From the IMG/VR virus record IMGVR_UViG_3300026488_000012, positions 62,001 to 126,000 of that record: a DNA stretch of 64,000 nt. One strand, 5' to 3'. The notes below the pieces were generated by a model. It worked only from the letters and a program-made list of their open reading frames with translations. It ran no database searches and was not told the origin of the DNA. Origin of the DNA: a virus. The translations under genes were made by a program, and so were the position numbers. Within the stretch, counting starts at the first letter, position 1, and the number at the start of each line of letters is the position of its first letter. Shown here in pieces: positions 1-63,055 of this stretch.

Positions 1-515
1 TTACAGTAGATTCCAAAACCAAGAACATTATAGATAGTATACTAACTATGATAGTCAATAGGGAATTAAAGATGTCCACTAATGTCATAAGTATTGATTC
101 CGTGGATAACGACTTAAAAGATTTGAGACACATAGAGGATGCCTTGTTGATGATGGGAATTAACAAATCTGTTAATTATCTACAACATTTATTAAAAATA
201 AACGTAGATATCAAATTCAAACATACAGTAACTATCGTAGAAGAGGTTAATATTATCAGAACAGGAGTTAAAATAAAGATACCTCCTGAGTTAATAAATA
301 CGCCTATGGATATAACGAGACATAGGATAATGATCGATTTGTTAAATGACTTAGGTATAGAAAATGACGATGAAATTCCATTAGTTAAAGATAAGTTAAA
401 CTTGCTAATGGATGGAAATATGAACCTATTTATAATTAGTAGGAATATGCATAAAAGGATAGTAATTAAATTGTTTACCATTAGTGATTGTTATGTTGGT
501 AAAATTATACAATAA
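1..515 (+). CDS. Unknown phage protein, 5' end outside the window
   Basis: The reading frame is already open at base 3 and runs without a stop to TAA at 513-515, so the first in-window ATG (base 48) need not be the start. At least 171 residues are visible. The protein is rich in Ile, Lys and Asp and shows no motif that I recognise. Its stop codon lies at the edge of a strong terminator hairpin (514-545), so this is the last gene of a rightward operon. Function is unknown. Confidence 0.75.
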   Translation, partial: TVDSKTKNIIDSILTMIVNRELKMSTNVISIDSVDNDLKDLRHIEDALLMMGINKSVNYLQHLLKINVDIKFKHTVTIVEEVNIIRTGVKIKIPPELINTPMDITRHRIMIDLLNDLGIENDDEIPLVKDKLNLLMDGNMNLFIISRNMHKRIVIKLFTISDCYVGKIIQ

Positions 516-554
516 GACATAACCCGGGTATACGGGTTATGTCTTTTATTTTTT
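514..554 (+). terminator. Rho-independent terminator
   Basis: A 13-bp stem (514-526 with 533-545) is followed by a T-rich tail. It ends the operon entering from the left and insulates the promoter and structured RNA downstream. Confidence 0.85.
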
Positions 555-589
555 ATATTTGTAATTTTTGAAATTAAAAGAAAAATGAC

Positions 590-615
590 TATATATCGCT
601 AAGATGTAATAAAAC
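590..615 (+). promoter_or_regulatory. Phage promoter-like motif upstream of structured RNA copy 1
   Basis: The sequence matches the recurrent motif of this genome: TAT, then CGCTAAGA, then TGTAATAAAAC. It sits between the preceding terminator and the structured RNA at 623. The same motif precedes RNA copy 2, so both RNAs appear to begin shortly after this element. Confidence 0.55.
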
Positions 616-622
616 CGCAAGT

Positions 623-740
623 CCTATCTGTCTAGTACTTATCTCCTGGTGTGGAAGGGGGAAGACACGACTAACCCCGTTGTCATATAGGGGGTCAGAA
701 GTCTTCCCTGACGAAGGAGATTTAAGGAACGACAGATAGG
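623..740 (+). ncRNA. Structured leader RNA, copy 1 (rod-like, covarying with copy 2)
   Basis: The RNA folds into one long interrupted hairpin. P1 pairs 623-632 with 731-740, P2 pairs 641-647 with 715-721, P3 pairs 659-666 with 701-708, and P4 pairs GAC/GTC (669-671 with 694-696) plus CCCC/GGGG (675-678 with 690-693). The second copy at 62326-62446 has the same helices with about ten compensatory changes in P1-P3. Internal-loop sequences are kept: AGTAC opposite GGAAC, GGTGTG opposite GACGA, and an AGAA strand. AGTA opposite GAA fits a loop E (bulged-G) motif; that is inference. P1 ends 8 nt before the AAGGAG of the MYG1-like gene, so control of translation or of mRNA stability is plausible. 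I do not recognise it as a known riboswitch or ribozyme. Confidence 0.8.
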
Positions 741-760
741 CGGGCTACAAGGAGTCAGAA

Positions 761-1609
761 ATGACACAAATGAGTAGAGTAAATAAAATCGGAACACATA
801 ATGGTGTTTTTCATGCAGACGAAATCACTGCAATTGCAGTGATTAAAATATTTACAGGTTCAAATCCTGAAATAATAAGAACCAGAGACAAAGACGTTCT
901 TAACAATATCCTCCAAGAAGGAGGGATACTGATTGATGTTGGTGGTGAATATAACTTTGAGAAAGGGATATTCGACCATCACCATAGTAAGAATGGAGTA
1001 AATAACATGGCATCTGCTGGTATTATTGCAGATGCTCTGGGCATTACTGAAGAGAAATACCCATTATTGGTCTCATTAATCAGGGAAGTAGATGCTCAGG
1101 ACCTAGGCATTAAAAGAAATCCTGAGCATCACTTTTCAAATATAGTTAAATCGTTTAATGGATTAGCAGATAATCCATCTAATAACGATGATGCTTTTGA
1201 GAAAGCATTAGAGTTTGCAGTTAATTATATAACCACCCTTAAAAAACAAGACGAGCTAAACTTATTCTACAAAAAAGAAGTAGAAGAAACAGTAATAAAG
1301 GAAATAAACGGAATTAAGGTCGCAGTTCGTAGGAAAGATGATAAGTTTGTCCCAGCTGTAGAATTCACTGGAGAAGCCGATTTAGTACTAAGTTGGGACA
1401 AGCAACAGAACTGTTGGAGTCTCCAGGCAGTACCTCTAACCAAAGGAGACTTTAAAAGTAAATACAAAATTGTAAGTGCAGATAATCCGGTTTTCATCCA
1501 CCCGGCTGGATTCATTGCTAAAATAAAAGATACGGGCGAAGGTATCAAGTTTGAAGTTAAAGATGGAGATAGTAACAAAACCATCACCATCCCATATCCG
1601 GGAGGATAA
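761..1609 (+). CDS. MYG1-like DHH-superfamily phosphoesterase
   Basis: This 282-residue protein belongs by motif to the MYG1/UPF0160 branch of DHH phosphoesterases. The N-terminal THNGVFHADE (about residues 12-21) supplies His and Asp metal ligands, and FDHHHSK near residue 72 is the DHH-type signature. Members of this family are metal-dependent hydrolases; eukaryotic MYG1 is reported as an exonuclease. A role in nucleic-acid or nucleotide turnover is inferred. The ATG at 761 follows AAGGAG (749-754). Immediately upstream lies a structured RNA (623-740), which may regulate translation. The gene is monocistronic, bounded by T-rich sequence at 1620-1631. A MYG1-like gene is an uncommon phage cargo. 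Confidence 0.8.
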   Translation: MTQMSRVNKIGTHNGVFHADEITAIAVIKIFTGSNPEIIRTRDKDVLNNILQEGGILIDVGGEYNFEKGIFDHHHSKNGVNNMASAGIIADALGITEEKYPLLVSLIREVDAQDLGIKRNPEHHFSNIVKSFNGLADNPSNNDDAFEKALEFAVNYITTLKKQDELNLFYKKEVEETVIKEINGIKVAVRRKDDKFVPAVEFTGEADLVLSWDKQQNCWSLQAVPLTKGDFKSKYKIVSADNPVFIHPAGFIAKIKDTGEGIKFEVKDGDSNKTITIPYPGG

Positions 1610-1637
1610 TCCCCTTGACTCTTTTTTTTTTATTAAA

Positions 1638-1663
1638 ATAACAGAGATATATATCTCTGTTAT
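1638..1663. terminator. Palindromic terminator between convergent genes
   Basis: A perfect 26-nt palindrome lies between the end of the rightward MYG1-like gene and the end of the leftward helicase gene. T tracts (1622-1630) and AT-rich sequence flank it on both sides, so it may act in both directions. Confidence 0.6.
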
Positions 1664-3925
1664 CTATTTTATTTTTATTAAAGATTCGTATATATCCTTA
1701 ATGTTGTTAATAGGTAAATGGACATAATTACTTATACTATTAACAGCTATATCTTCTGTAACTTCTTCTAAAACTTCTTCTGTATCAGGATTTTCCTCTT
1801 CTATCTCTTCTGTTTCCTCTTGTAATACTTCTTTAGGTATCTCGTAAGCAAACTTATTATCAGTTATGAGCTCTACTCTATCTTTAGAGAGATTTAATAT
1901 AAATAAATCTCTTTGGGTTATGTTAAGCTTATCACCTGTATCTAATTTTACTATATAAACAAAACATTTCATATCCTGTCCTAATCTATATATCCTAGCT
2001 ACGGTTTGGTCAAATATATACATCCTGAATGGTAAATCTAAACATATCATAACGTTAGCAGCTATTAGAGGTACTCCGGTAGATAGTGACTTATATGTAG
2101 TAACTAAAGGGTTATAGTTATTCTTTAAATCCATAAATAAGGATACTGTTTCGTCTAGCTTCTTAGTTAACTCTCCATATACTCTTAAAGGGTTGTATTT
2201 TAGTTTTTTGCATTTCTCATAGGCTATATCACATACTTCTGTATAGTTAGAGAATATCAATGTCTTCTTAGGAGTAGATTCTATTATATCTTTATACTTC
2301 ATAACCTTAGCTATCTCTTTATAACAATCTATTCTTCTCCTTAGTAAGATTTTACCTAATGCTTCTCCTAGTGCTTTTAACTTAGGATATTTAACTATAG
2401 GAGCTACATCTCTAAACTCTTTTAATAAATCACCTTCCAACATAGGTGTAATATAATTCTTCTCAAATTCATTAACAGTTCTTATTATAGGTATAGCAGC
2501 CATAAGTTTTCCATTTTCAACAAGGTTAAATACTTCCTTAACATCTTTTAAATAGTTCCTAAACATCCTATCTATCTCTATTTTGGTATAACCTCGTTTT
2601 TTCTTTTTATACCATTTGTCCTTTACATAGTTAATTATCTCTATAAATCTATTATAATATTTATCATAATCTTTAAGTAACTCTTTATGTCTTTTAGTTT
2701 TATATTCTTCCATATCTTTTTGTATAGTAGAGATTAAATACGGTTCATAATTGTCTATAGTTACTTTATATTCGGTAATAACTAAAGGAGGAAGGTTGTC
2801 TGTAGGCTTTTCTATGCGTCTTCTATATAATCCAAATCTATATTTTAGAAGATTTAAGGATACAGGGTCTGTAGATTTATACATATTTAAAAACCAGGTT
2901 AACGCATATGGGAATTTCTTATCCAGAATATATAGTAGTGGTATTAATTCCTTTTGTTCCATTTTTATAGGTGTACCTGTTAATAAAAACATATCTTTAG
3001 GGTCTAAGTAGCTAACTACTTGTAATAACGATTCAGTTCTTAAAGATTTAATATTGTTAAAATTGTGCCATTCATCTACGATTATATTAGGTTTAAGTCT
3101 TTTTAGTTTTTTAAGAAGAACTTCATCTTTAGCTAATTTCTCCAAGAATTCGTAATGAAGAATAATAAACCTTTCTCTACTTACTTTTCTATCTTTAGTG
3201 GATAATATTTTATAGGTCTGCGGTCTCTTAAATACTGATTCAGTAACTGATTTAACCCATACTTCTTCTAAGGTCTGTCTGGGAGCTATGATTATAGTAT
3301 GTTCGTATTCTAATCCTACAGATAGTGCTAAACTTACAAATGTCTTACCAGCTCCAGCTGCTGCGTCTATTAAGAACCCTCTTAAGTCTGCTAAACGTTT
3401 AACTTCCTCATATTTTTCAAAAGCAGGTCTTTGAAAATCTAAAACATCGAATTTAAGCTCCTTTTTGATTCTCTTATAGTTAATAGATGTTCTTGTTTTT
3501 ATGTATCTCTGAGATACCCAAGTCTGGGTTCTTATGAAACTTAACAAATCTTCTACATTAGTTATACCTATACCAAGGTTGGCCTCTATATCAGGATGAT
3601 TAGATATATAATCTAATACAACTTCTAATTCTAATAAGCCAAACTCTGGTATAGAGATAGTATCTCCTCTCTTACCAAATATAATATCAAACTGATAACC
3701 TGAAATAGTTAAATCATCCTCCGATAGCGGTTTTACAACCATAGATTTAACAGAACGTATTAAATCCAAATAAGGTAATTTAAATTCATAATACCTGAGA
3801 TTACGTCTATATCTATAAGTTATAGATTTATATCTTAGATAATTAAGCATAGTCATTCCTTTATTTAATTTCAATGTAACCGGTTTATGACTAATAACGT
3901 AATAGTAATAGTTAAAAAGATTCAT
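1664..3925 (-). CDS. SNF2-like superfamily 2 helicase/ATPase
   Basis: This 753-residue protein carries SF2 helicase motifs in order: Walker A AAAGAGKT (188-195), IIIAPRQT (motif Ia), the DEWH box (284-287), TGTP (316-319, motif III) and a C-terminal VARIYRLGQ (motif VI) followed by a VYIVKLDTG strand typical of SNF2 proteins. Such enzymes translocate on double-stranded DNA to remodel bound proteins or recombination intermediates. The first 160 residues form a phage-specific N-terminal region, and the C-terminus has an acidic Glu-rich stretch before the end. It is transcribed leftward and alone, divergent from the gene at 4036. Its role in replication or recombination is inferred. Confidence 0.85.
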   Translation of the reverse strand: MNLFNYYYYVISHKPVTLKLNKGMTMLNYLRYKSITYRYRRNLRYYEFKLPYLDLIRSVKSMVVKPLSEDDLTISGYQFDIIFGKRGDTISIPEFGLLELEVVLDYISNHPDIEANLGIGITNVEDLLSFIRTQTWVSQRYIKTRTSINYKRIKKELKFDVLDFQRPAFEKYEEVKRLADLRGFLIDAAAGAGKTFVSLALSVGLEYEHTIIIAPRQTLEEVWVKSVTESVFKRPQTYKILSTKDRKVSRERFIILHYEFLEKLAKDEVLLKKLKRLKPNIIVDEWHNFNNIKSLRTESLLQVVSYLDPKDMFLLTGTPIKMEQKELIPLLYILDKKFPYALTWFLNMYKSTDPVSLNLLKYRFGLYRRRIEKPTDNLPPLVITEYKVTIDNYEPYLISTIQKDMEEYKTKRHKELLKDYDKYYNRFIEIINYVKDKWYKKKKRGYTKIEIDRMFRNYLKDVKEVFNLVENGKLMAAIPIIRTVNEFEKNYITPMLEGDLLKEFRDVAPIVKYPKLKALGEALGKILLRRRIDCYKEIAKVMKYKDIIESTPKKTLIFSNYTEVCDIAYEKCKKLKYNPLRVYGELTKKLDETVSLFMDLKNNYNPLVTTYKSLSTGVPLIAANVMICLDLPFRMYIFDQTVARIYRLGQDMKCFVYIVKLDTGDKLNITQRDLFILNLSKDRVELITDNKFAYEIPKEVLQEETEEIEEENPDTEEVLEEVTEDIAVNSISNYVHLPINNIKDIYESLIKIK

Positions 3926-4035
3926 AATTAATAAAGCAGTAACTCTTGATATACAGGATTTATTCCTCGTATATAGTTTTTATTTCGACTTACCTGAAAA
4001 TTCATTGATTTAACTTCAATCATAAAGGAAAACCT

Positions 4036-4983
4036 ATGATAGACTTATACCAAGGAACATTAGGACATAAGTACAACGTTGACGATATAAAATCAGAGTT
4101 AATCAAGTATTTAATTAAGACAGAAGAAGATTTATCTTACGGAGTAGTAGAAAAATACTCTAAGGTAATCTTTATAACAGGTAGGAACGAGTTAGAGAAG
4201 AACATTAAGACGTTCTACCATCCTATCATATTTGAACATAGTGGTAATACATATATAGCTATGGATGTAAGACTCTTCAGTAAACAAAAAATAAATCCGG
4301 ATGATAATATACTAGACATAATAAAAGACCCTAATAACGGTAAATTAGCGATATATAGAACTATACTAACTAAGTTATTCTTAGATAAAAACTTAAAATT
4401 CCTACTAGCTATAGATAAACAAGTATTTAAAATGTTTGATTCAGTAATAACTACTCTATATAGAAATGCTTTAATGTCTCCTGATGTTACACCATATGTT
4501 AGTCTGACATGTAACTACCATTATCAGACTTACGAAGATAGAAGAATAGAACCAAAAGAATTTGAAAGAATCATATACGACTACATAAGAACACAAATAA
4601 ATATGATAGATAGAGGTTTAATTAAGAGGATAGAAAATGCTCTAGTTACTAATGAAATACCTAATCCATCTAAAACTATAGGAGACTTAGTAGAAGTTAG
4701 TAAATTCATAGGTGCTAATACGAGAGTAGAAAAAATGACAACAGATGTTCTCTCTACTATACTTGGTAGAAGTATGATATTCCTGAATAGTTTTGAACTC
4801 GGCATAGCTTTCGTAGAATCTAAAGCTAACACTATAGCTATTCTAACAACACTATTAGAAAACAGTTTTAATAGAAAATCTATTATGTATAAAGCTATAG
4901 ACTTAAGAAAAAGATTTATAGACCCAAATAGTTTCTTAAGAACTATGCAAAGAGTCATTAATGAAAATATTTTAAAAGGATAG
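4036..4983 (+). CDS. Unknown phage protein (315 aa)
   Basis: The ATG follows AAAGGAAAACCT, so the ribosome binding site is weaker than most here. The protein is mostly helical by composition, with a central strand-rich part (HPIIFEHSGNTYIAMDVR). No enzyme motif or membrane segment is evident. It shares an operon with the next gene, 4 bases downstream, and faces away from the helicase gene. I do not recognise its family. A structural role is possible but unsupported. Confidence 0.75.
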   Translation: MIDLYQGTLGHKYNVDDIKSELIKYLIKTEEDLSYGVVEKYSKVIFITGRNELEKNIKTFYHPIIFEHSGNTYIAMDVRLFSKQKINPDDNILDIIKDPNNGKLAIYRTILTKLFLDKNLKFLLAIDKQVFKMFDSVITTLYRNALMSPDVTPYVSLTCNYHYQTYEDRRIEPKEFERIIYDYIRTQINMIDRGLIKRIENALVTNEIPNPSKTIGDLVEVSKFIGANTRVEKMTTDVLSTILGRSMIFLNSFELGIAFVESKANTIAILTTLLENSFNRKSIMYKAIDLRKRFIDPNSFLRTMQRVINENILKG

Positions 4984-4987
4984 GAAA

Positions 4988-5593
4988 ATGATAGATTTAA
5001 GAAATAGAGCATTATTATTCAAAGATAAAAGATTTCTAATAAACAATAAAAATGTTTATATTTTTGCTAAAGCTAATTACTATAACTACGGGAGAGATAA
5101 ATCATCTCCTTTTGAATTCTTCTATAGAGTATTTAGAACAGATGAAGAGGCTAAACAGTATTTTGACTTATATAAGAACGATTGTTTACCGAATGAGACA
5201 ACTTACAACGGAGCAGAGAACTTCCTTAAGCTTATATATATAAAACCTCCACATACTATAAGTCTGTTAGCCCATATATTAAATTTAGGTATAGAAGACT
5301 ATGTAGGAAATTTGGACTCAGTAATAAGTAATAAAGATATACTTTTTATAAAGAACTGTGAATTAAAACTAGTTAACTATGACAAAGAAAAAGATGAATG
5401 GATTTTTAAGAATAATAAAGATAACTATTATATAGTACAGAAACCATATCTATTATTAGAAGAAATAATAAGTGAAAACAATAACAGTAAAAACAAAAAC
5501 TCTATAATAAACGTATTATTTATAAAGAAGCCTATAGAAGATTTGATATTATTAGAAGATAGTGGAAACAAAACATTTTTTAGATATAAGTAG
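4988..5593 (+). CDS. Unknown phage protein (201 aa)
   Basis: It starts four bases after the previous stop, with AAAGGATAGGAAA as ribosome binding site. The beginning of the protein (MIDLRNRALLF) resembles the start of its neighbour only in MIDL. The sequence is rich in Asn, Lys and Tyr and has no motif I recognise. Its stop codon lies inside a 15-bp terminator stem, marking the end of the two-gene operon. Confidence 0.7.
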   Translation: MIDLRNRALLFKDKRFLINNKNVYIFAKANYYNYGRDKSSPFEFFYRVFRTDEEAKQYFDLYKNDCLPNETTYNGAENFLKLIYIKPPHTISLLAHILNLGIEDYVGNLDSVISNKDILFIKNCELKLVNYDKEKDEWIFKNNKDNYYIVQKPYLLLEEIISENNNSKNKNSIINVLFIKKPIEDLILLEDSGNKTFFRYK

Positions 5594-5622
5594 GGTATGT
5601 ACCCTACTTATATCTGTATTTT
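5582..5622 (+). terminator. Terminator with embedded stop codon
   Basis: A stem of 15 bp pairs 5582-5596 with 5601-5615 and is followed by a modest T-rich tail. The TAG stop of the upstream gene lies within the left arm. Confidence 0.75.
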
Positions 5623-5744
5623 AATAGCAATGACAAAAATAATAAAAAATAAAGGAGGGGTAAAATCACAAAATATTAAAAATCCTAATATGCTCTTATG
5701 CTTAAAGTCTCAAAAAGGAAAGGAATATGGGTGGGCAAGTCTAT

Positions 5745-7880
5745 CTAAAAATCTTTAAGAACCCCGAGCTTCTTCAACCTCTTGTAAAATTTCATCTCTT
5801 TTAAAATTGTATCCAAGTTAAATGTTTTCGTGTATTTCGGGTCAAGTTTCTCTTTCAAGATTCTTATCTTCCCTATTATACGATAAGCTTCAATCTCGGA
5901 TGCGACATTCTCTAAACTCTCAAGTAGCTCTTCTATTTTTTCTTTAAGCTCTTCTTGGAACATAATATACTCACGCTCTTCCTCAGTGGCATCTTCTAAC
6001 AACTCCAAGTTAACTGCTCTTGCCAGGACTTTGCTTCCATCGATTCCGTAAACTTCTTTGTTTTTCGCATTATTCAAAAACCAGTATGCTAGGAGCCAGG
6101 CGATGACCATATCATCATGTCCATCTTTTTTATGGTCAACTCTTCCATTCACAACACTCAATGATAATATCTGCTCCACTAAAACTTCATCTCTTACTAC
6201 ATCACCAATATAGGAGGCTGCGCTTTTTAAAACGGGACCGTAAAGATTACTTCTTGCAGTAACACCACCACCCGAAGTCACAAACCCAAACTTGCTCTTG
6301 AACTTTAAGTACAGATAGTTACTGTACATCTTATCCTCAAGTATCTCTGAGTACCTATCCACGTATAAGTCCAAATCATCAATCACCCAGTTAAAGATTC
6401 TTCTGAATGGATTAACACCATTCTTAACCATTAACTCAACAACTCCGTCTAAAACTGCTACACCAGTTGATTTTCTCTCTACGATTAATACGCTGTTAGG
6501 ATAGGTACTCAATAAATCATATACAAATTTAGAAAAACTTGGAATAGAAGCTTCGTTGTAATTACCTGCTCCTACTACTTCACCAGTATATACGTTCATA
6601 ATCACTAACGCTATATCATCCCTACCTATCCCTTCTGAAGGGTCTATAGAGATAACATATGGTGTATACCTGTTGTCTCTAACAGTGTCTTTAAACTTAT
6701 CGTAAAGCCTTAATACATATCCGTTAAATATCTCAGTATCAAGAGGTTGCATCTTACTGTTTTCTATTATCTCTAACTGTTTCTTAGTTAGAGGATGGTT
6801 TAAACTACCACTACCCCACTTCATAAGGAAATCAGCTTCAGCATCTTCTCCTTCAGCTCTAGCTACCTCCATCCTCTCTAACAACCAATCATCTGTAAAA
6901 CCTAACTGTCTATGGTTATACTCTAATAAACATATAACGTGTGCTTTATACTTACTGTTCTTAATCATAACTTCATTAAGCTCTTTCCTATCTTTGACGT
7001 CAAACAGCTTCTCCGTCCATCTAAATGCTTCCTTATATATCTCGTACGCAAACTGACCTTCCTTAGTTTTTAATTTACCAGGTGTAGTTAATAACGTGTT
7101 ACCATAAGGTAGTCCCTTCTCCTCAGCTATCTCTCTAACTGCTGTAGTAGCTGCAAATATAACTGGTAATATCTTCTCTATGTTGTAGACATATGCAAAC
7201 TCGTCTATATCAACTACAGGAGTACTCATACCCCTACCTATGTTATCTGCTGTCTTAGGGTCCTTCTGACCTACATATAAGTCTATAACGTTCTCAAATG
7301 CTTTAACAGTTATCCTTTCACTGTTTTTAACATCCCTATTACTTATCATCTTCAAATACCAAGGAAACCCTTCCTCTAACTTATCTACTATCTTCCTACT
7401 AACCCCTGCTCTTAACTTATCATCTTTCACAAGTATAGATATGTTAAACTTCCTTACTTTTAATCCACTTAGATAAGCGTTCTTAGTCTCATAGCTTAAT
7501 GACTTACCTGTCTGTCTAGGTTGTATCAGATACGTAGTTACGTGATTAAAGAATAACCAAAAATAACTTATGTTAGCCCTATTAGCTATCAATGGTAACA
7601 GGTTACCACCTATGCTTGGTATTCTAAATACCTCTCTTAAAAAATACCAAGGATTTAAAAAACACTCCTCTGATATCATAGATATCTCTTCGTTTGTTAA
7701 ATTGTCAGACCAAGGGTCTACATCCAGTAATTTAGGATTTAAAAGACTTAGCATAAATGCGTGATTCTTTATGCCCATATGCTTTAACAGTCTTGCTACA
7801 TGTAAAAAACTATCATTCTTCGTATTTAACTGTAAGACTGCGTTAGGATACTTCTTCCAGTCATCGTAGAATAAAATCAT
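5745..7880 (-). CDS. terL: Terminase large subunit (TerL)
   Basis: This is the DNA-packaging motor ATPase and nuclease. The 711-residue protein shows the ATPase Walker A-like QPRQTGKS (120-127) and Walker B VVDIDEF (222-228). It also shows the three acidic nuclease motifs: SIDPSEG (Asp413), LIVERKSTG (Glu468) and DGHDDMVIAW (Asp589/590). All catalytic positions expected for a terminase are present. The ATG at 7880 follows AGGAGTTATAG. After the nuclease domain there is a ~110-residue charged helical C-terminal tail. No small subunit was recognised beside it. Codon use in the last third (more GAG, CTT, TTG, ATC) looks different from the first two-thirds, which may reflect recombination. Confidence 0.95.
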   Translation of the reverse strand: MILFYDDWKKYPNAVLQLNTKNDSFLHVARLLKHMGIKNHAFMLSLLNPKLLDVDPWSDNLTNEEISMISEECFLNPWYFLREVFRIPSIGGNLLPLIANRANISYFWLFFNHVTTYLIQPRQTGKSLSYETKNAYLSGLKVRKFNISILVKDDKLRAGVSRKIVDKLEEGFPWYLKMISNRDVKNSERITVKAFENVIDLYVGQKDPKTADNIGRGMSTPVVDIDEFAYVYNIEKILPVIFAATTAVREIAEEKGLPYGNTLLTTPGKLKTKEGQFAYEIYKEAFRWTEKLFDVKDRKELNEVMIKNSKYKAHVICLLEYNHRQLGFTDDWLLERMEVARAEGEDAEADFLMKWGSGSLNHPLTKKQLEIIENSKMQPLDTEIFNGYVLRLYDKFKDTVRDNRYTPYVISIDPSEGIGRDDIALVIMNVYTGEVVGAGNYNEASIPSFSKFVYDLLSTYPNSVLIVERKSTGVAVLDGVVELMVKNGVNPFRRIFNWVIDDLDLYVDRYSEILEDKMYSNYLYLKFKSKFGFVTSGGGVTARSNLYGPVLKSAASYIGDVVRDEVLVEQILSLSVVNGRVDHKKDGHDDMVIAWLLAYWFLNNAKNKEVYGIDGSKVLARAVNLELLEDATEEEREYIMFQEELKEKIEELLESLENVASEIEAYRIIGKIRILKEKLDPKYTKTFNLDTILKEMKFYKRLKKLGVLKDF

Positions 7881-14788: not shown

Positions 14789-15634
14789 ATGAAAAGAACC
14801 ATTAATATTGAAAAAGTAGTAACGTGGTTACGTGGTGTATTGGCAGATGTTGATAACGTAGTAGTAGATATGGAGGTTGTGAGTAACGAAAATTATGTAA
14901 ATGTAAAACATCCTACGGGTGAGTTAATCATAGAAGGTGGGATTGTTAATACTAGAATTAACGACATAGATTATGAATTAGAACTTAAAGATGTTGATTA
15001 TTCTAGGATTCTGGATATCATAGTGAGTCCTGGAGTAGATATCTCTAAGGAGATTTTAGGACGAATCGAATATTTAGAGAATATCGGAGAAGATTGTACG
15101 GATTTTGTAGGTTTCTCTAGAGGTGAATATATGGAATTCGTCATATGTGACACGTCTAGGTATATAAAAGGTGTCGTAAAATTCAGAAAAGTGAAAGAAG
15201 GCGTTATAGAGGTTACGGACATACTCAACGATTATAAGTATGTGATTAGAAAATATAGTAACAAACTTGATAAAATAACCTATAGAAATATTAACGTATT
15301 AATACCTAAAGGGTTATATAATAGAATAGAGGAAGTTATAAATAAAGGTATCTGCGATATTAAAGAAGTACTAAGATGGATTAAGACGGTTGTTAATAAT
15401 ATTAACAATGATGAACTGGATATAAAAGATATCGTCGATGTAGAAAACATTGGTACCGACCAACCAGTTCTAAAGATAAAGCACAATGGAACATATTTTA
15501 ATATATCGGATGTTATAGAATTTGGATACGAAGACAAGAATTGTACATTCGAGTTTAACTTACACTCAGCTGAATATATGGAGATAATGGATGTAGCGAA
15601 CGAGCTATATACAAAGTATATTGATCAGAAGTAG
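14789..15634 (+). CDS. Unknown protein with duplicated WLkxVL domain (281 aa)
   Basis: The protein opens with INIEKVVTWLRGVL and later repeats the same kind of unit as DIKEVLRWIKTVV followed by VLKIKHNGTYFNI. Between them is a YRNINVLIPKGLYNRIEEVI segment. The first unit and the middle segment correspond to the paralogue at 9686-10258. The second unit appears to be an internal duplication of the N-terminal domain. Strong ribosome binding site AAAAAGGAGTCAAAA. Function is unknown. Confidence 0.75.
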   Translation: MKRTINIEKVVTWLRGVLADVDNVVVDMEVVSNENYVNVKHPTGELIIEGGIVNTRINDIDYELELKDVDYSRILDIIVSPGVDISKEILGRIEYLENIGEDCTDFVGFSRGEYMEFVICDTSRYIKGVVKFRKVKEGVIEVTDILNDYKYVIRKYSNKLDKITYRNINVLIPKGLYNRIEEVINKGICDIKEVLRWIKTVVNNINNDELDIKDIVDVENIGTDQPVLKIKHNGTYFNISDVIEFGYEDKNCTFEFNLHSAEYMEIMDVANELYTKYIDQK

Positions 15635-15637
15635 TAG

Positions 15638-15676
15638 AAGAGGTAGTTAAACTACCTCTTCATTCGTATTTCTTTT
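15638..15676 (+). terminator. Terminator
   Basis: An 11-bp stem pairs 15638-15648 with 15651-15661 and is followed by T-rich sequence. It separates the 281-aa gene from the RecJ-like gene. Confidence 0.75.
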
Positions 15677-15694
15677 TTCCAAGGAGGATTAACA

Positions 15695-15775
15695 ATGTCA
15701 GATATTAATGAGATTAAAAATGAAAGGATTGTAAAATGTCAGAGAGAATTTCAAGAAAGGAGTTACTGGATGTAG
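15695..15775 (+). CDS. Possible 26-residue leader peptide overlapping recJ-like gene
   Basis: ATG 15695 has the strongest ribosome binding site of the region (AAGGAGGATTAAC). It opens a 26-codon frame (MSDINEIKNERIVKCQREFQ and six more residues) that ends inside the RecJ-like gene in another frame. The RecJ-like ATG at 15736 has only AAAGGATTG upstream. Translation of the short frame could therefore modulate the start of the exonuclease gene. No homology is recognised and the frame could be a degenerate start. Confidence 0.35.
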   Translation: MSDINEIKNERIVKCQREFQERSYWM

Positions 15776-29825: not shown

Positions 29826-32686
29826 TTAATTAACTTTAACTCATAATCCAGTTCTGGTACATATATACCAGTAAGTGTAGGTGCTAATTTCTTAGACACG
29901 GAGAACATATTACTAGTAGGAGTGTATTCATATATTTCTATCTCTCCTAAGTTATCTAAGTTTTCTACTTTAACGAACTGTATATTACTGTCGTTTAATC
30001 TGTTTAATATGTATTTATCCATATCTATTCTTTTATTAAATTTCCTAATAGCGTATTGCAAAGCTAGACCTGTTTTTCTTTTTAGTTCTTCTAACTTAAT
30101 ACTATCAGTTACATCGTCTATTACATAAAGTGTGACTGTTGGTTTTACTATAAAAGGAGTATGGAATGTTACGTTATTTTTAATAATTTCAACGTCCCTT
30201 AGATTATAAGTAGGTTTGTATAATATTTTAGTATTTTCCAGTAACATACTATTTAATTCTTCTAACTCGTTAAATATGTAGTTATCGAGTTCTAAGTATT
30301 TACTTATCATAAATGTTCTATAATCCTTATCTTTAGTCAATAAGAACTCTAATTCAAATGTTAAAATATCTATGTAGTGGTCGAATCCATACGTATAATC
30401 TATAATAGGTTTAGAGTTATCGTCTAAGATAACTTCTCCTTTTTTATGTATTAGTATAGGGTTCCCTTCTTCATCAAGAACAAGGTCTCCTTTCTTATGT
30501 AGTATTTTTACTATTTCAGTATCCTCGATTCCATCTCCATTGGTATCTATTTTTTCAAATATGTAATTACCATCTTCATCCGTAGCTAACACGTCTTCTT
30601 TATACGTAAGGTATACGTCATTCTCATATTTTTTATATATTCTAAGGTTAGGGGATACTCTATAGTTTGTAAATAAATATTTAGCTCTTTTGAATAACTC
30701 TAAAGATAAATTACTTACAGCGATAACATTTGCTACTTCTGAATCAAACTGTTCTATCTCTCTGGTATAAGTGTTATTTATTTTACCTAAGACTGTAGGG
30801 TCTGTTACATATATGTAAAGCTTTGCATTTTTTATCACATTACCTATTCTAACATGGTCTAAAACAGATATGAAATCCATTAGTTCAACAGTATCATCCT
30901 GACCTATATAATCAGAAACATTGAATCTAAACGTTATTTCTTCATCTCCTATCTCACCTTTAATAGCTATCTTAGACATACTATTATTAGGTTTAAATAC
31001 CAACATAGCCTTCCTAAAATTATTAGGAATATTTCTAAAACTATCATCTGCGTTATATCTTAATTTAAGTACATAATCCTTACCGTTTCTAAGTACCGTA
31101 GTGTTTACTAACTCTAATACAAAATTACTATTAGCATTATAGTATTCAGATTTACTATAAATAACTTTAGGAGTATTTACTTCGTATACCCTTATAAATA
31201 CTCCATCTTTAAAATCGAATATGTACTTAAACGTGTTATAGAAATATTTCTCTTTTCTAAGTACCTCCGATAAATCACCTTCTGTTAGTGTTTTTAGTTT
31301 ATCAACATCCGTTTGTGATACCAGTTTAAATTTATAACCATCTTTCTTAAAGAACGTCATAGGTCTTATTATACCTATCCCATTGTCTATAGTAACGCTG
31401 TTAGGTAAATTAGCTATTTCTTCATGTGTTATTTCTAAAGTATCCATAAATACATCTGGATTACTATACAGATATGACTGGTCCTCTATGAATACTAATT
31501 TCTTCTTAACTACGTACTCTCTCTTAAGTATCGTGTCTATGGTGTTATCAAGTTCGTATCCATATCTACTTAACTTCTCTTCTATATCGTATGTCGTTAT
31601 AGGTAACTTGTTATCTCCTGTAGTATTATAAATAACTAACTTTCTAAGATCTTCTAAATCTAACATATTTCTACCACCTGAAGTGTAACTGGATGATAAT
31701 ATTATAGGTGTGAATGAAGTTATAGCAGGTGTTTTACCAGTTATCTGTGTAGGTAATGAAAAATCCATCGTGAAATCGTCTTTAATGTAGTTATCAAAGT
31801 TTAATATAACTTCTCCTTTAGTGGTATAGATATAATTACTAATATTAGTAATGTTAAAGTTCTTAGTATATGTATCATATAGCGTAGTTTTTAGTGTTTT
31901 TTCATCTTTTAGAGAACATCTTAGTACTGGATTTTTTATATCGTATACGAAATCAGAGAAAGTTATACAGGTATCTATCTCACCTACTTCTGTGGTTAAT
32001 TTACTAAATATCGTATGGAACTGATCATTAAGTTCATATGTTTTATTAAATCCTTGAACGGGTATTATAGATTGTTTATCGTATATCATATCTAATTGTT
32101 TTAATTCTACATCGAATAGAATCCATCCGTTACCATCATTGTCTGTAACTATATGACTTTTAAGTATTCTATTACCAGGTAGCGATATACTAAGTTTATT
32201 TGGCATTAGTATAACTACTGATTTATTCGTACTTTCGAAGTATCTTATTATTACGTCGTTTAGGAACATAAAGCTATAGTAGTTTTTTACTATTATTCTT
32301 GTATACATAGGAATGGTGATTTCGTAATATTGTTCTTTTTTTATACCGAATTGTTTAATCTGGTCTATCGATATGTATATATGGAACGTTGTAATACTTG
32401 GATATGCGAATACATTATCGTATTCCCTGTTTATCATATGGTGGTATAAGTCCTCTCTAGTCGTTGCTAATGATGGATATAACTTTCTTAAGTTTATTAC
32501 CATCTGTTCTAAAAGCGTGCTACCTACGGTAGCGTTACTTTCTATTAGAAACATAAACGGATTGGTTGGGTCTGGTATATCATTACCATCCATTAAAGTT
32601 TCCATATATTTGTATAAGTCTATCTGAACCATATTAGGGTCATATGCATACTTTATTAATTCGTTTTTAATATCTAAAAATCCCAT
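29819..32686 (-). CDS. Probable baseplate wedge structural protein (955 aa)
   Basis: The N-terminal third (VGSTLLEQMVINLRKLYPSL, then EDLYHHMINREYDNVFAYPS) resembles a large structural protein found in many jumbo phages and tentatively equated with baseplate wedge (gp6-like) proteins. The rest is strand-rich, with Asp-rich loops such as DEDGNY and DTNGDGIED. The C-terminal IKKT-like segments hold long helices. It is transcribed leftward after the 362-aa gene, eleven bases away. Virion location is inferred; the wedge assignment is tentative. Confidence 0.6.
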   Translation of the reverse strand: MGFLDIKNELIKYAYDPNMVQIDLYKYMETLMDGNDIPDPTNPFMFLIESNATVGSTLLEQMVINLRKLYPSLATTREDLYHHMINREYDNVFAYPSITTFHIYISIDQIKQFGIKKEQYYEITIPMYTRIIVKNYYSFMFLNDVIIRYFESTNKSVVILMPNKLSISLPGNRILKSHIVTDNDGNGWILFDVELKQLDMIYDKQSIIPVQGFNKTYELNDQFHTIFSKLTTEVGEIDTCITFSDFVYDIKNPVLRCSLKDEKTLKTTLYDTYTKNFNITNISNYIYTTKGEVILNFDNYIKDDFTMDFSLPTQITGKTPAITSFTPIILSSSYTSGGRNMLDLEDLRKLVIYNTTGDNKLPITTYDIEEKLSRYGYELDNTIDTILKREYVVKKKLVFIEDQSYLYSNPDVFMDTLEITHEEIANLPNSVTIDNGIGIIRPMTFFKKDGYKFKLVSQTDVDKLKTLTEGDLSEVLRKEKYFYNTFKYIFDFKDGVFIRVYEVNTPKVIYSKSEYYNANSNFVLELVNTTVLRNGKDYVLKLRYNADDSFRNIPNNFRKAMLVFKPNNSMSKIAIKGEIGDEEITFRFNVSDYIGQDDTVELMDFISVLDHVRIGNVIKNAKLYIYVTDPTVLGKINNTYTREIEQFDSEVANVIAVSNLSLELFKRAKYLFTNYRVSPNLRIYKKYENDVYLTYKEDVLATDEDGNYIFEKIDTNGDGIEDTEIVKILHKKGDLVLDEEGNPILIHKKGEVILDDNSKPIIDYTYGFDHYIDILTFELEFLLTKDKDYRTFMISKYLELDNYIFNELEELNSMLLENTKILYKPTYNLRDVEIIKNNVTFHTPFIVKPTVTLYVIDDVTDSIKLEELKRKTGLALQYAIRKFNKRIDMDKYILNRLNDSNIQFVKVENLDNLGEIEIYEYTPTSNMFSVSKKLAPTLTGIYVPELDYELKLIKV

Positions 32687-42161: not shown

Positions 42162-43916
42162 ATGATTATAGCTAGAGTACCTTTGAACAATTTAGAATAT
42201 ACTATATATAAACCACTTATAACATCGGTTGTTAAGTCTTTTTCTATAAAATACTTAAAAGACCCTGATCCTTATTTAACATTTACAGCTGATGCCGATG
42301 TTTTCGGTTCAGGTATGTATGATACCGATTACTCCACGCAATACCAGAAAAGATTTATAGACGTAACATATGAGGTCAGACATGATGATGAAGGCAGTAT
42401 CGTTAATAGTATTAGATTTAACGACGGTTTAGTTTTATTCGACGATAAAGATTTGAAATACTTTAAAATCTTTGGAGAACCTATATCACATACTTTTAAT
42501 TTAACACTTAAGATAAGAAGTAGATTTAAAAATGAACTTAAGCAATTACTTAACCATTTTCAGATGGGTCAGATAGATGATGTTAACTATTTAGTAACAG
42601 ATGCAGATGTATTTTTCTCCATACCTAATAACCTATTAGACTTAGTTAGAAATATCTGCTATTTAAAGTATAACGACGAAGAACTATGGTTCAAATATTT
42701 TACTAAGTTTTCTACTATAGAACTTGATTTCTTAAATAGTAAATCAGGGAAGAAACAACTGCCTATATATCGTATAAAATATAAGGATTTAGCTATCCCA
42801 TTTTCAGCAGAGTTCTTAGATAAAGAAATAGAAAGAGAAGATGGATGGTTTTCTATAGAGATAGGTCTAAGGTTTAATTTAGACATAATAACATCTTTAA
42901 AAGTTCAATATCCTATACTAGTAGCTAACAGACCTATAGAAAAGAGGTTTATAATAATACCAGATAGACTTATAGAGTCAGTAGCATTACCTATAGAAAG
43001 GTCTCTTTACAACGATAAACTTATAAACACTTATTTGGAAAGAGTTAATAACCTCGTTTATAAAAAGATGCGAGAGTTAATGAACACTATAGATGTTGAT
43101 AAGTACATTAAAATATTTAAAGACATAGAAGACGATTATGATATCTTATTCGATTATAAAAAGAAGATAGAAGAATTACATAGCTTAGATAAGAATGTCA
43201 CTAATTATAACAAACTAAAAGAATTAATATTGGAAGCTATACATAAAGATATTAGTAAATACCTAGATACGTTCTATAGATTAAAGAACAATTTAAAAAG
43301 GGTATATCCTATCTATGATATTTGGAGAAACTATCTTACTTATAACGGGTATGAAGTTATTAACGTTTTATTATTACGTATTAGTCCTCGTTCTATGGTT
43401 TACCTTAATCTATACGAGTTATTAAACTTAGGATATAGTAAGGATGTTATTGACTACATCATCGACAATCATAGCTCAGAGATATTTAAATTAAAGGGGT
43501 CGGTATTTCATATGGAAATCTATATAGACGATTTACCATATAAGTATCTAGAAATAGTTAAGGAAGATACATATATAGAAGATTTAGATTTAGAGCTTAA
43601 GAGAGGAGATTTGATAGATAAAAGGATATTAGATCATAATCTAAATAACGAGGATCGTGTATATATAGACTTAAGACCAGTTTATCATTTGGTTATACGT
43701 ATCGCTAATGATTTTAGAAATATTAACTATAAAGTCAATACTGAGTATTTTAGTGTCTTAGGTCAGTTCTTTGCTATTAGAGACATAGAGAACTATTATC
43801 TTATGTCAGATAGGTCTATAATGAAAACAATCAACGCTTTAACTATAACGGCATTATCCGCTAGAGAAATGAGTCCTTTACTGTTAGAAGCTGTAAAAGA
43901 TATGAATAAGGAGTAA
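42162..43916 (+). CDS. Large structural-type protein (584 aa)
   Basis: The N-terminal 270 residues are strand-rich (YLTFTADADVFGSGMYDTDY, RFIDVTYEVRHDDEGS), and the rest is helical. There is no catalytic motif. It begins a run 42162-47620 of tail or baseplate-type genes with almost no spacing. I read it as a virion component of unknown place. Confidence 0.6.
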   Translation: MIIARVPLNNLEYTIYKPLITSVVKSFSIKYLKDPDPYLTFTADADVFGSGMYDTDYSTQYQKRFIDVTYEVRHDDEGSIVNSIRFNDGLVLFDDKDLKYFKIFGEPISHTFNLTLKIRSRFKNELKQLLNHFQMGQIDDVNYLVTDADVFFSIPNNLLDLVRNICYLKYNDEELWFKYFTKFSTIELDFLNSKSGKKQLPIYRIKYKDLAIPFSAEFLDKEIEREDGWFSIEIGLRFNLDIITSLKVQYPILVANRPIEKRFIIIPDRLIESVALPIERSLYNDKLINTYLERVNNLVYKKMRELMNTIDVDKYIKIFKDIEDDYDILFDYKKKIEELHSLDKNVTNYNKLKELILEAIHKDISKYLDTFYRLKNNLKRVYPIYDIWRNYLTYNGYEVINVLLLRISPRSMVYLNLYELLNLGYSKDVIDYIIDNHSSEIFKLKGSVFHMEIYIDDLPYKYLEIVKEDTYIEDLDLELKRGDLIDKRILDHNLNNEDRVYIDLRPVYHLVIRIANDFRNINYKVNTEYFSVLGQFFAIRDIENYYLMSDRSIMKTINALTITALSAREMSPLLLEAVKDMNKE

Positions 43917-43919
43917 TAA

Positions 43920-45176
43920 ATGGGATTGTTTAATGATGGAATCGATTATGAAAGTTATACAAGGTCAGTTATAAATGAAAACGATAAACAAATAGACACT
44001 GGTATAGCCATAGCGGATAAAACTAACTATAACTATATATTCGAATCTCAAACACCTATAGATTCGGTTATAAATCAGTTACCTGGTTATGTTATTAAAG
44101 TAACATATTTTAACAAATCACAAGGTAATGCTGAGGTCTACGAATATCCAGATTTTACACTTGATGACTTAATAGTTGAATATACAAAAATAGACAATAT
44201 GTCTTTATACTTAGAGTCTCCTATAGAAGCTACTGAGTTAAACAATTACGAGGGTACTGGTTATATAAAATCTCGTATAGAACCTCAACCAGGGGATTTC
44301 TTTTTAGCTAAGTTATACGACGGTAGATTAGGTTTATTTGTAGTTACTACTACAGACGCTATAACTTATAACTTTAGTAGGATATTTAAAATAACATTTA
44401 AGTTTTATTTATTCCCTTCTGATAAGGATTTAAATAAAATAGAAAAGAACACAGCATTAGAGTTAATAGCTGATGATAAATTAAACAGCTCTAGAGAAGA
44501 AATACTCTATGAGAAGTCCAGATATATAACGATTAGAGAAGTTATAAAAAGAGAGAATGAACTATTAGAAATATGGAAAAGAAGATTTATAACATCGTAT
44601 AATAACTATAATATAGGTTTCAGAGATGAGAACGGTTTCTTGGTAGTAGACCCGTATTTTGAAAAATACGTCGTATCTTTGATAGGATTAACTAACATTA
44701 AAGACGTAACTTTAACTAATTTAAATATGGAAGAACGTTCTATATTTGATGTTATCTTAGATAGAGATAAGATTGCATATGGTCTAATGAAACACTACAC
44801 CATAGAACCTGCTATAGATACGTTCTTCACACCCTTCTTGAAATCCTATGCTTATAATCAAATGGATAAGATAGTTAGATTAACTAAAGATGAGAATGAA
44901 CCATATTACGTATTTTCTAAAACACTATATGATAATTTAATACCAGAGGATAATGATGAAGAAGTGGTATTTGATTCTCCTATAGAATTAGGAGTTTATA
45001 GCGTTATTAACGATATTAACATCGATTTGAATATCCTAGATGAAATCTTAGATGAAATAAATGAATTAATAAAATCTGATAATGAACGACATATGTATTA
45101 CAAGATCCCTGTGGTTATTAATATTTTAAGATTTTACAAATTTAAGAATAACTATACTAACCATTTTCTATTTTAG
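43920..45176 (+). CDS. Conserved jumbo-phage virion protein (418 aa)
   Basis: The region EPQPGDFFLAKLYDGRLGLF followed by VVTTTDA and a strand-rich FKITFKFYLFPSD resembles a conserved structural protein of large phages that handles or packs tail components. The C-terminus is helical and acidic. It begins three bases after the previous stop. Virion location is inferred. Confidence 0.6.
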   Translation: MGLFNDGIDYESYTRSVINENDKQIDTGIAIADKTNYNYIFESQTPIDSVINQLPGYVIKVTYFNKSQGNAEVYEYPDFTLDDLIVEYTKIDNMSLYLESPIEATELNNYEGTGYIKSRIEPQPGDFFLAKLYDGRLGLFVVTTTDAITYNFSRIFKITFKFYLFPSDKDLNKIEKNTALELIADDKLNSSREEILYEKSRYITIREVIKRENELLEIWKRRFITSYNNYNIGFRDENGFLVVDPYFEKYVVSLIGLTNIKDVTLTNLNMEERSIFDVILDRDKIAYGLMKHYTIEPAIDTFFTPFLKSYAYNQMDKIVRLTKDENEPYYVFSKTLYDNLIPEDNDEEVVFDSPIELGVYSVINDINIDLNILDEILDEINELIKSDNERHMYYKIPVVINILRFYKFKNNYTNHFLF

Positions 45177-56813: not shown

Positions 56814-57359
56814 ATGAGATTCTTATTTATTTTAATTTATACGTTAACCCTATATGGGAAAACAATGAATACGACTGAAATATCAGTCGTACATAAAGAT
56901 AGGAGACTGGTAAATGAGTATTATCAAGAGTTAAAAAACCTGTCTGATGACCAGAAATTCTGGTTGAGTGAGGTGTACAAGACCTGTCTAGAGTATGATC
57001 TAGGTTATACTTGCGTAGCGATAGCTTGGGAAGAATCCAAGTTTAATAAATGGGGAGATAACGAAGCAGGTGACTACGGTTTAATGGGTATAAACCTATA
57101 CTGGTACATGATAGACAACGGACTTAATTATAGAAACAAATATAGGAGAATAGAAGTCCGCACTAGGTTAATAAGAGATAGTTACTATAACTTAAGGTAC
57201 TCTATATCTAAGCTTATAAAATTAAGAAAGAAGCATAAGAACAACTGGTTTAAAATATGGGGTTGTTATAACGGAGGTACAACCCCTAACTATTACTATA
57301 GTAGAAGAATATTGAATAGAATTTATGCTTTTAGAAAATGGTTAAAGACAAATAACTAA
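56814..57359 (+). CDS. SLT-type lytic transglycosylase / lysozyme-like protein
   Basis: The 181-residue protein begins with a short hydrophobic signal-like segment (RFLFILIYTLTLYG), then has AIAWEESKFNKW with the catalytic-type Glu near residue 73, and DYGLMGINLYWY, corresponding to the GLMQ(I) block of SLT-domain transglycosylases. CYNGGTTPNYY matches the later YNGG block. These enzymes cleave peptidoglycan between MurNAc and GlcNAc. ATG 56814 follows AAAAGGAGTTGAAA; the TTG at 56808 is within the ribosome binding site. It may act in lysis or in cell-wall penetration. A small membrane protein follows directly. Confidence 0.8.
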   Translation: MRFLFILIYTLTLYGKTMNTTEISVVHKDRRLVNEYYQELKNLSDDQKFWLSEVYKTCLEYDLGYTCVAIAWEESKFNKWGDNEAGDYGLMGINLYWYMIDNGLNYRNKYRRIEVRTRLIRDSYYNLRYSISKLIKLRKKHKNNWFKIWGCYNGGTTPNYYYSRRILNRIYAFRKWLKTNN

Positions 57360-62295: not shown

Positions 62296-62321
62296 TATGT
62301 ATTACTAAACTGTAACAAAAC
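62296..62321 (+). promoter_or_regulatory. Phage promoter-like motif upstream of structured RNA copy 2
   Basis: TATGTATTACTAAAC then TGTAACAAAAC matches the recurrent motif. It ends five bases before the structured RNA. Confidence 0.6.
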
Positions 62322-62325
62322 AAAA

Positions 62326-62446
62326 AACCTCTCTACCAAGTACTGCTCCTCTGGTGTGAAGGAGAAGGTCGAGACTAACCCCGGTGGTATAAGGGGAGTC
62401 AGAAGACCTTCTCGACGAAGAGGAGACGTGGAACGGTAGAGAGGTT
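62326..62446 (+). ncRNA. Structured leader RNA, copy 2
   Basis: P1 pairs 62326-62337 with 62435-62446. P2 pairs 62346-62352 with 62419-62425, and P3 pairs 62362-62370 with 62405-62413. P4 pairs GAC (62373-62375) with GTC (62398-62400) and CCCC (62379-62382) with GGGG (62393-62396). Relative to copy 1, P1 has three, P2 three and P3 four compensatory pair changes. Loop strands AGTAC/GGAAC, GGTGTG/GACGA, TAA and AGAA are unchanged. P1 ends two bases before AAGGAG of the next gene, so folding and ribosome access are likely linked. Confidence 0.8.
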
Positions 62447-62460
62447 AAAAGGAGTAGATA

Positions 62461-62967
62461 ATGAAAAAAATTAAAGTGGAGTACGATTATAAAGAAATTT
62501 CTTCCCCTGATATTGACGTTATAAAGGAGATAAGAATTGGCGAGAAAGTAGTCTCGCCAATAGCAGTAAAAGGAGTAGAATCCATTAGTCCCAACAGATT
62601 ATTTAGCAATGTAACTAGTGCAAGAGCAATAGTTCTTGCTTATCTTTTTGAGGATGAGATAAATAATTTGTTGCCTTACCCTATGATGATTTTCGATAAT
62701 AGAGGAACAAATGTGGTCGCTACGGAAAGAGAGGAAGATGAATTTCTCTCTTATGATTATGTAGATATGACAGGGGTTAATTGTGGAAGAAGTCAACCGA
62801 CTTATAAGATATTTGAGTTAACCGGGGACCTAATGACCGATGTTTATCACATCATTAACCCTCCGGTGAGGATAGATTATATCTATCCTAAGTTTAGAGC
62901 GGATATTCTTTATTTAGGGAATCAGGCGTTCGCTCTACTTGATGTAGAATTTATAAAACCATATTAA
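62461..62967 (+). CDS. Unknown protein preceded by the structured RNA (168 aa)
   Basis: ATG 62461 follows AAAAGGAGTAGATA. The protein starts with a charged strand (KIKVEYDYKEISSPDIDVIK), has a central helix (ARAIVLAYLFEDEINN) and a strand-rich end. No motif is recognised and no similarity to the MYG1-like protein, the other gene behind this RNA, is apparent. It forms a one-gene unit with its own promoter motif and terminator. Confidence 0.7.
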   Translation: MKKIKVEYDYKEISSPDIDVIKEIRIGEKVVSPIAVKGVESISPNRLFSNVTSARAIVLAYLFEDEINNLLPYPMMIFDNRGTNVVATEREEDEFLSYDYVDMTGVNCGRSQPTYKIFELTGDLMTDVYHIINPPVRIDYIYPKFRADILYLGNQAFALLDVEFIKPY

Positions 62968-62968
62968 T

Positions 62969-63008
62969 GGGAGTTTATAAACTCCCTTTAATTTCTTCTT
63001 TTTTTTTT
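62969..63008 (+). terminator. Terminator
   Basis: A perfect 18-nt inverted repeat (62969-62986) is followed by a T-rich run ending in ten T. Confidence 0.8.
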
Positions 63009-63055
63009 ATTTTAAACATATATATATATATGTATGTATTTCGAACTGATTTCGT

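Follow-up and report, generated by a model that had tools for sequence, protein, structure and literature searches.

We describe a new family of structured, covarying 5′ leader RNA in a phiKZ-like phage, and show that it is tightly associated with coding sequences that are themselves packed with hairpins. The window analysed here is the whole 64,000-nt stretch of DNA, bases 62001-126000 of virus contig G000 (179,975 bp). An initial annotation of this window had pointed to a covarying, unclassified structured RNA in the 5′ leaders of unrelated genes, a proposal that is confirmed and, with five copies now in hand, strengthened. The most informative feature was absent from that annotation: of all genes in the genome, those that follow the leader carry the densest hairpins.

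Results

The leader RNA and its copies

Two loci in the window had been said to fold into the same interrupted rod, and both do so: copy 1 at 623..740 (+ strand; covariance-model match 136 bits) and copy 2 at 62326..62446 (+ strand; 142 bits), 84% identical over 121 aligned columns. Folded singly, copy 1 reaches -53.6 kcal/mol (z -4.5) and copy 2 -60.4 kcal/mol (z -6.9), a stability attained by 0 of 200 dinucleotide shuffles. The rod runs from P1 (10 bp) through an asymmetric AGUAC/GGAAC loop, P2 (7 bp) and a GAA-versus-GACGA loop to P3 (9 bp), and continues with an AGAA loop, P4, a 2-nt bulge, P5 and a terminal loop of GUUGU type. About ten pairs of P1, P2 and P3 differ between the two copies with pairing always kept, just as had been claimed.

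A covariance model built from copies 1 and 2, the check that the initial annotation had proposed, was used to search the contig. It returned three further covarying full copies, all within this same contig, at 1-119, 3115-3232 and 142671-142789 (copies 3 to 5; E 1e-19 or better), and a truncated copy lies at the very end (179909-179975). The two original loci are therefore real, and the count of two was too low: the contig holds at least five full leader copies and one truncated copy. Copy 3 is identical to copy 2, and the copies at 3115-3232 and 142671-142789 are diverged and were detected by a model built without them. Across the five full copies 98.4% of pair cells are standard pairs. Two-sided changes occur at 15 of 38 pairs in this sample of five copies from one genome, two of them identical, against 7.6 +/- 1.8 after shuffling (0 of 500 shuffles reach the observed value), and pairing registers slid by 1-3 columns leave only 0-2 pairs with such changes.

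The segments AGUACU, GAAGG, GACGAAG, AGAA and GGAA vary little or not at all over the five copies. In copy 1 the AGTAC strand lies at 634..638 (AGUAC invariant in five copies) and the facing GGAAC strand at 726..730 (GGAA invariant in five copies); in copy 2 sequence and alignment place them at 62339..62343 and 62430..62434, all on the + strand. A fit of this internal loop to loop E had been suggested, and AGUA opposite GAA with a C-G closure is present in five of five copies, a signature in sequence by which the loop is probably a bulged-G (loop-E-like) motif. Conservation of the unpaired strands, also claimed, holds between copies 1 and 2 for AGTAC/GGAAC, the GGTGTG/GACGA strands, the bulge between P4 and P5, and AGAA. 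Over all copies, GGTGTG is not invariant, being replaced by CGGAGAA or GGAGAA in copies 4 and 5, which leaves only GAA/GACGA constant, and the supposed TAA bulge is actually NA (AA, CA or UA).

The RNA had not been recognised as any known class, and comparison with Rfam 15 gave the same answer: no family reached its gathering threshold in the window and none matched the leaders even under a lax E limit of 5, and a known class was rejected on these grounds. With a five-sequence model, homologues of the leader were absent from 44 phage records with the divergent polymerase, which suggests that the leader is lineage-specific; phiKZ, a 51-kb syntenic relative (G001) and a distant sister phage (G003) were likewise negative. 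Scanning viral and genome collections for exact patterns yielded either no match or chance ones that the model rejected, and blastn against 50,697 phage records gave only a weak 43-base match within a Gordonia-phage gene.

The phage

Among the predicted products of the contig are a divergent family B DNA polymerase of phiKZ type (PF20286, E 4e-164; 31% to phiKZ), beta-type subunits of a multisubunit RNA polymerase and a PhuZ tubulin (phrog_4733, E 1e-37), together with RecJ-like and SbcD-like proteins. By the first three, hallmarks of phiKZ-like nucleus-forming phages, the phage is phiKZ-like, and it may form a phage nucleus. Single-sequence searches, weak at such divergence, found no match in the contig to the phiKZ shell protein ChmA or to PHIKZ067, which we take to be the ChmC homologue in phiKZ. 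No tRNA or tmRNA was found in the 64-kb window. Both ends of the contig fall within the same leader sequence (1-119 and 179909-179975), so that either a circular genome was opened in the leader or the assembly broke at the repeat, in which case more leader copies could be missing.

Promoters and transcript layout

The phiKZ early promoter is TATATTAC (PMC7058600) and the layout of AR9 promoters is AAATATATATTAT-6N-G (PMC5312081). In phiKZ's own sequence the early promoter appears as TATATTACTAA-nnTG. Early-type promoters of this layout, a TATATTAC-like box, 6 nt and a G, stand upstream of the leaders: TATATATCGCTAAGATGTAATAAAAC at 590..615 before copy 1 (motif scan score 25.7) and TATGTATTACTAAACTGTAACAAAAC at 62296..62321 before copy 2 (score 29.6), both on the + strand, with predicted start sites at G 606 and G 62312. 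The promoter-like motif noted earlier is thus present, as a phage early promoter (TATATTAC-6N-G) and not a sigma-70 one. A position-weight search seeded from upstream of the leaders and of neighbouring genes located 32 sites in the contig with the consensus TATATATTACTAAAATGCAATAAAAC; almost every site is on the + strand, and most lie immediately upstream of a gene. Early promoters precede those copies whose upstream sequence lies within the contig, that of copy 5 being degenerate; the promoter position of copy 3 falls beyond the contig edge. An identical promoter and leader start (GTTATCTTACTAAAATGCAATAAAACTACAAGATTA) occurs three times, at contig positions 113412, 121977 and 126156 (window 51412, 59977 and just past the window end), and the site at 121977 precedes an RNA-polymerase-subunit gene.

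Since the complete copies lie between an early promoter (TATATTAC-6N-G) and a Shine-Dalgarno sequence, the element is a 5′ leader, and from the phiKZ/AR9-like layout these transcript parts should be early and made by the phage polymerase. The predicted transcript begins with a short A-rich 5′ end, followed by the rod and, about 4-11 nt after it, the Shine-Dalgarno sequence, a spacing that replaces the 2-8 nt given before. AAGGAG stands outside the rod at 749..754 for the first leader gene (unpaired probability 0.59 in the native mRNA) and at 62449..62454 for the second (0.88), both on the + strand. Leader transcripts carry one or two genes and then a hairpin or T-run; the second probably terminates at the hairpin and T-run at 62968..63012 (+ strand), as sequence and fold suggest. 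In predicted folds there is no terminator between rod and gene, and no helix of the rod sequesters the Shine-Dalgarno sequence.

Coding sequences behind the leader

Copy 1 precedes a gene for a MYG1-like DHH phosphoesterase (761..1609, + strand; PF03690, E 1.6e-25) and copy 2 a gene for a 168-aa protein (62461..62967, + strand) with no match in Pfam, NCBIfam or PADLOC. The genes downstream of the leaders are, as had been stated, unrelated and have no visible common pathway. Many short inverted repeats can be read in their sequences. We measured structure excess as the mean folding energy of 120-nt windows against 20 synonymous-codon shuffles for all 157 ORFs of 80 aa or more; ORF calls were mechanical, each taken from its first start codon. 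Across the contig the median excess is -1.1 kcal/mol per window, and the values for the five leader ORFs are -12.9, -10.3, -8.0, -7.8 and -6.2 against shuffles that preserve protein and codon counts, not dinucleotides. These ORFs rank 1, 2, 3, 4 and 7 of 157; the 168-aa gene is third (-8.0) and the MYG1-like gene fourth (-7.8 kcal/mol per 120 nt). Fifth comes the second cistron behind the copy at 3115. By chance, all five leader ORFs would fall within the top seven with a probability of 2.8e-8 (Mann-Whitney p 5e-9), and the leader ORFs, in the manner of genome-scale ordered RNA structure (GORS), have coding RNA that folds better than its synonymous shuffles.

The density of perfect short-loop stems of at least 8 bp is 3.4 per kb in leader ORFs and 0.55 per kb elsewhere, and stem lengths go up to 16 bp. 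A composition artefact was rejected, as the shuffles keep protein and codon counts and these energy-free hairpin counts agree with the folding result. The sense-strand excess is clearly larger than the antisense in three of the five leader ORFs (e.g., -12.9 vs -9.1), and G-U pairs are about as frequent on the sense strand as in the shuffles but are depleted on the antisense strand. Sense bias and sense G-U pairs together indicate that the selected molecule is most likely the mRNA, and DNA-level palindromes are a less likely source of the coding hairpins, given sense-biased folding and tolerated sense G-U pairs.

Structured ORFs without a leader occupy ranks 6 and 8-20. Genes without a leader behind GTAA-type promoters have a mean excess of -3.2 vs -1.2 for the GCAA type (p 0.01); the classes were grouped partly by eye and then by the base after the start-site G, and the evidence linking promoter class to coding structure is only moderate. 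The gene for an SLT transglycosylase (window 56814-57359) has an early-type promoter and the sixth-highest coding structure. The hairpin-densest coding sequence of the contig, that of the leader gene at 142809-144995 (L014 16809-18995), encodes a basic protein of 728 aa, of which residues 528-687 (~160, near the C-terminus) show a 36% match to a Microcystis-phage protein.

Comparison phages

Control phages were scored with 8-12 shuffles per ORF. Across seven phages, the level of -6.2 that all leader ORFs attain is matched by only 9 of the 791 remaining ORFs that are 130 aa or longer. phiKZ shows no general link between early promoters and coding structure (p 0.27), and a general early-gene property is not seen there as an explanation of the coding hairpins. 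The two most structured phiKZ ORFs (172658-173086 and 120708-121160) both lie downstream of TATATTAC early promoters. The relatives G047, G033 and G014 gave no homologues of the leader genes by blastp, and among their ORFs of at least 130 aa a 251-aa ORF of G033 (-6.3) alone reaches the leader-gene range. In the syntenic relative G001, ORFs 7158-7433 and 30550-31023 have excesses of -9.8 and -5.8 and no homologues in the contig.

The distant sister phage G003 (IMGVR_UViG_3300037333_000013; 164,667 bp; divergent polymerase E 8e-152) encodes a MYG1-like protein with 29% identity to ours. Its ORF ranks second of 160 for structure (-10.0); upstream of it stand a TATATTATT promoter and a leader of ~125 nt whose sequence is unrelated. 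This leader, family X, has four copies and is apparently a second new leader RNA, found before ORFs 5425-6525, 4810-5235, 43434-44030 and 115802-117004 (minus strand; L063 ~4860-5000). By inspection, a hairpin loop pairs in all copies with a downstream CAUAGUC-NNNN segment to form a pseudoknot, followed by GGUAAUGC or GGUAAUUC, and four covarying pairs give the compensating changes GUGG/CCAC, CUGG/CCAG, CAGG/CCUG and CACG/CGUG. No Rfam match was found in the family X loci searched. An early-type promoter and an untranslated leader of ~300 nt precede the top-ranked G003 gene (ORF 113691-115460, -11.6); both are its own, and the leader lies at L077 ~15460-15760 (minus strand) and has only a chance-level Rfam match. 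This 589-aa gene product and the 728-aa product of the top gene in our contig show no relation. The five long-leader G003 genes, a group picked after seeing the data, differ from the rest with p 2e-4. The combination of a long structured leader with a hairpin-dense coding sequence thus recurs with different leader RNAs. Coding structure is uncorrelated between homologues in general (Spearman -0.04), which makes the structure common to the two MYG1-like genes a specific property.

Two further observations concern these sequences. The early leaders of G003 ORFs 94361, 19166, 74824, 10801, 96561, 15431 and 159184 carry a short 5′ UGCUGUG-stem-CUAAC hairpin that recurs behind TATATTATT promoters, with stem changes that are apparently compensating. 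In L065 (IMGVR_UViG_3300046786_000471), all nine ORFs in 76-6247, one of them MYG1-like, have an excess of -4 to -14 kcal/mol per window.

Discussion

It is unusual for one phage genome to hold five paralogues of a covarying RNA family that has no known relative, and leader and hairpin-dense messages together point to a hitherto unrecognised means by which viral mRNA is protected or handled. We tentatively favour, at somewhat less than an even chance, a reading of the leader as a tag, recognised in trans, on early mRNAs that are deliberately structured for protection or handling. The tag would mark some of the early transcripts that start at the phage's early promoter, with at least five uses in this genome, on messages meant to stay folded. 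Its bulged-G (loop-E-like) motif and its GAA, GACGA and AGAA loops may be bound in trans by a protein or the ribosome, and this binding would help highly structured messages to survive nucleases and yet be loaded by ribosomes. The setting would be a phage group that keeps early transcription apart from translation. In phiKZ relatives, early mRNAs arise inside a vesicle or nucleus and have to be exported before ribosomes can translate them (PMC12908238), which removes the protection given by ribosomes; dense folding could shield these messages from nucleases and base-pairing defences, and this would give such messages a reason to exist. Human MYG1 is reported to be a 3′-5′ RNA exonuclease (PMC11167044), and one tagged gene may therefore itself make a ribonuclease; that its coding structure protects its own message is speculation. 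As a counterpoint to the tag reading, the structured genes may just be low-expression genes; the absence of the leader from the 44 relatives and the lack of a general link between early promoter and coding structure in phiKZ also weigh against it.

A more elaborate form of the tag reading, which we regard as doubtful, envisages a DNA-phage regime of "armoured mRNA". Here the leader would mark early messages shaped at synonymous sites into near-continuous hairpins, and a trans-acting factor would keep them folded and resistant to nucleases or base-pairing defences and deliver them to ribosomes; sister phages would use unrelated leader RNAs likewise, as with the covarying pseudoknot family of G003.

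The initial annotation had proposed a regulatory RNA, either a protein-binding leader, which is still plausible, or a riboswitch-like aptamer, which gained no positive support. One phage protein could bind all copies and adjust initiation across a small regulon, as ribosomal-protein leaders do, with the coding hairpins a separate brake on the same low-dose genes. Conserved internal loops within a variable helix frame, a rod that adjoins the Shine-Dalgarno sequence, and CUCCU-like strands in P2 that by sequence could pair with it instead would all suit such a site. Yet the predicted native folds leave the Shine-Dalgarno sequence outside the rod, no regulator gene was recognised in the phage, and regulation alone leaves the hairpin-dense coding sequences unexplained, and we consider this reading rather unlikely. 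A metabolite-sensing riboswitch would share the compact fold, the conserved unpaired strands and the position in 5′ leaders of several transcription units; it is very unlikely, because the downstream cistrons are unrelated, with no common pathway, and no expression platform (a terminator, or a Shine-Dalgarno-sequestering helix in the rod) is seen in predicted folds, nor is there a relation to any Rfam riboswitch.

The put RNAs of phage HK022 modify RNA polymerase, and processive antitermination, in which the rod would modify the phage polymerase to pass hairpin-dense genes without stopping, accounts directly for a leader before the hairpin-densest genes and one second cistron. It is improbable nonetheless, as the transcripts are short and appear to stop at a hairpin or T-run of ordinary kind, and other structured genes (those at ranks 6 and 8-20) do without the leader. 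The leader might instead direct export or localisation, taking selected early mRNAs from the early vesicle or phage nucleus to ribosomes, and phiKZ relatives do separate transcription from translation, with the RNA-binding ChmC implicated in export (PMC12908238). It stands, however, on only a small subset of early genes, and the shell protein and ChmC gave no match here in single-sequence searches that are weak at such divergence; we think this quite improbable. Little credence is given to the idea that recombination spread promoter and leader as a cassette in which the rod is only a generic 5′ mRNA stabiliser. Copy 2 and the contig-end copy do match nearly to the base in promoter and upstream sequence, but copies 1, 4 and 5 have diverged by compensatory changes with their internal-loop sequence retained, and a cassette leaves the link to coding structure unexplained.

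The link between leader and hairpins offers a testable entry to mRNA protection, export or translation in giant phages that separate transcription from translation, and to why synonymous sites of some DNA-phage genes face strong selection for RNA structure. Among known systems, ribosomal-protein-type autogenous leaders such as the L20 leader (RF00558) are alike in being structured, probably protein-recognised and beside the Shine-Dalgarno sequence; the phage leader differs in matching none above threshold, in serving several unrelated cistrons and in preceding hairpin-packed coding sequences. HK022 put and Bacillus EAR RNAs form rods or stem-loops and stand at the 5′ end of transcripts that are early or long. 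The phage leader resembles them as a 5′ rod RNA on early transcripts, and differs in having no Rfam match, short transcripts with terminators and a phiKZ-type polymerase. Early transcripts of phiKZ and AR9 share the promoter layout (TATATTAC or TATATTAT, 6 nt, G), whereas the phiKZ early leaders examined are short and without common structure, and phiKZ has no general link to structured coding. GORS of RNA viruses is alike in that coding RNA is selected for pervasive base-pairing via synonymous sites; it is defined for RNA-virus genomes, whereas here a few genes of a DNA phage are concerned, tied to a specific leader. Closest in arrangement is family X of G003, with several early-leader copies before hairpin-dense genes including a MYG1 homologue, although its sequence and its fold, a hairpin-loop pseudoknot, are unrelated and our leader model does not match it.
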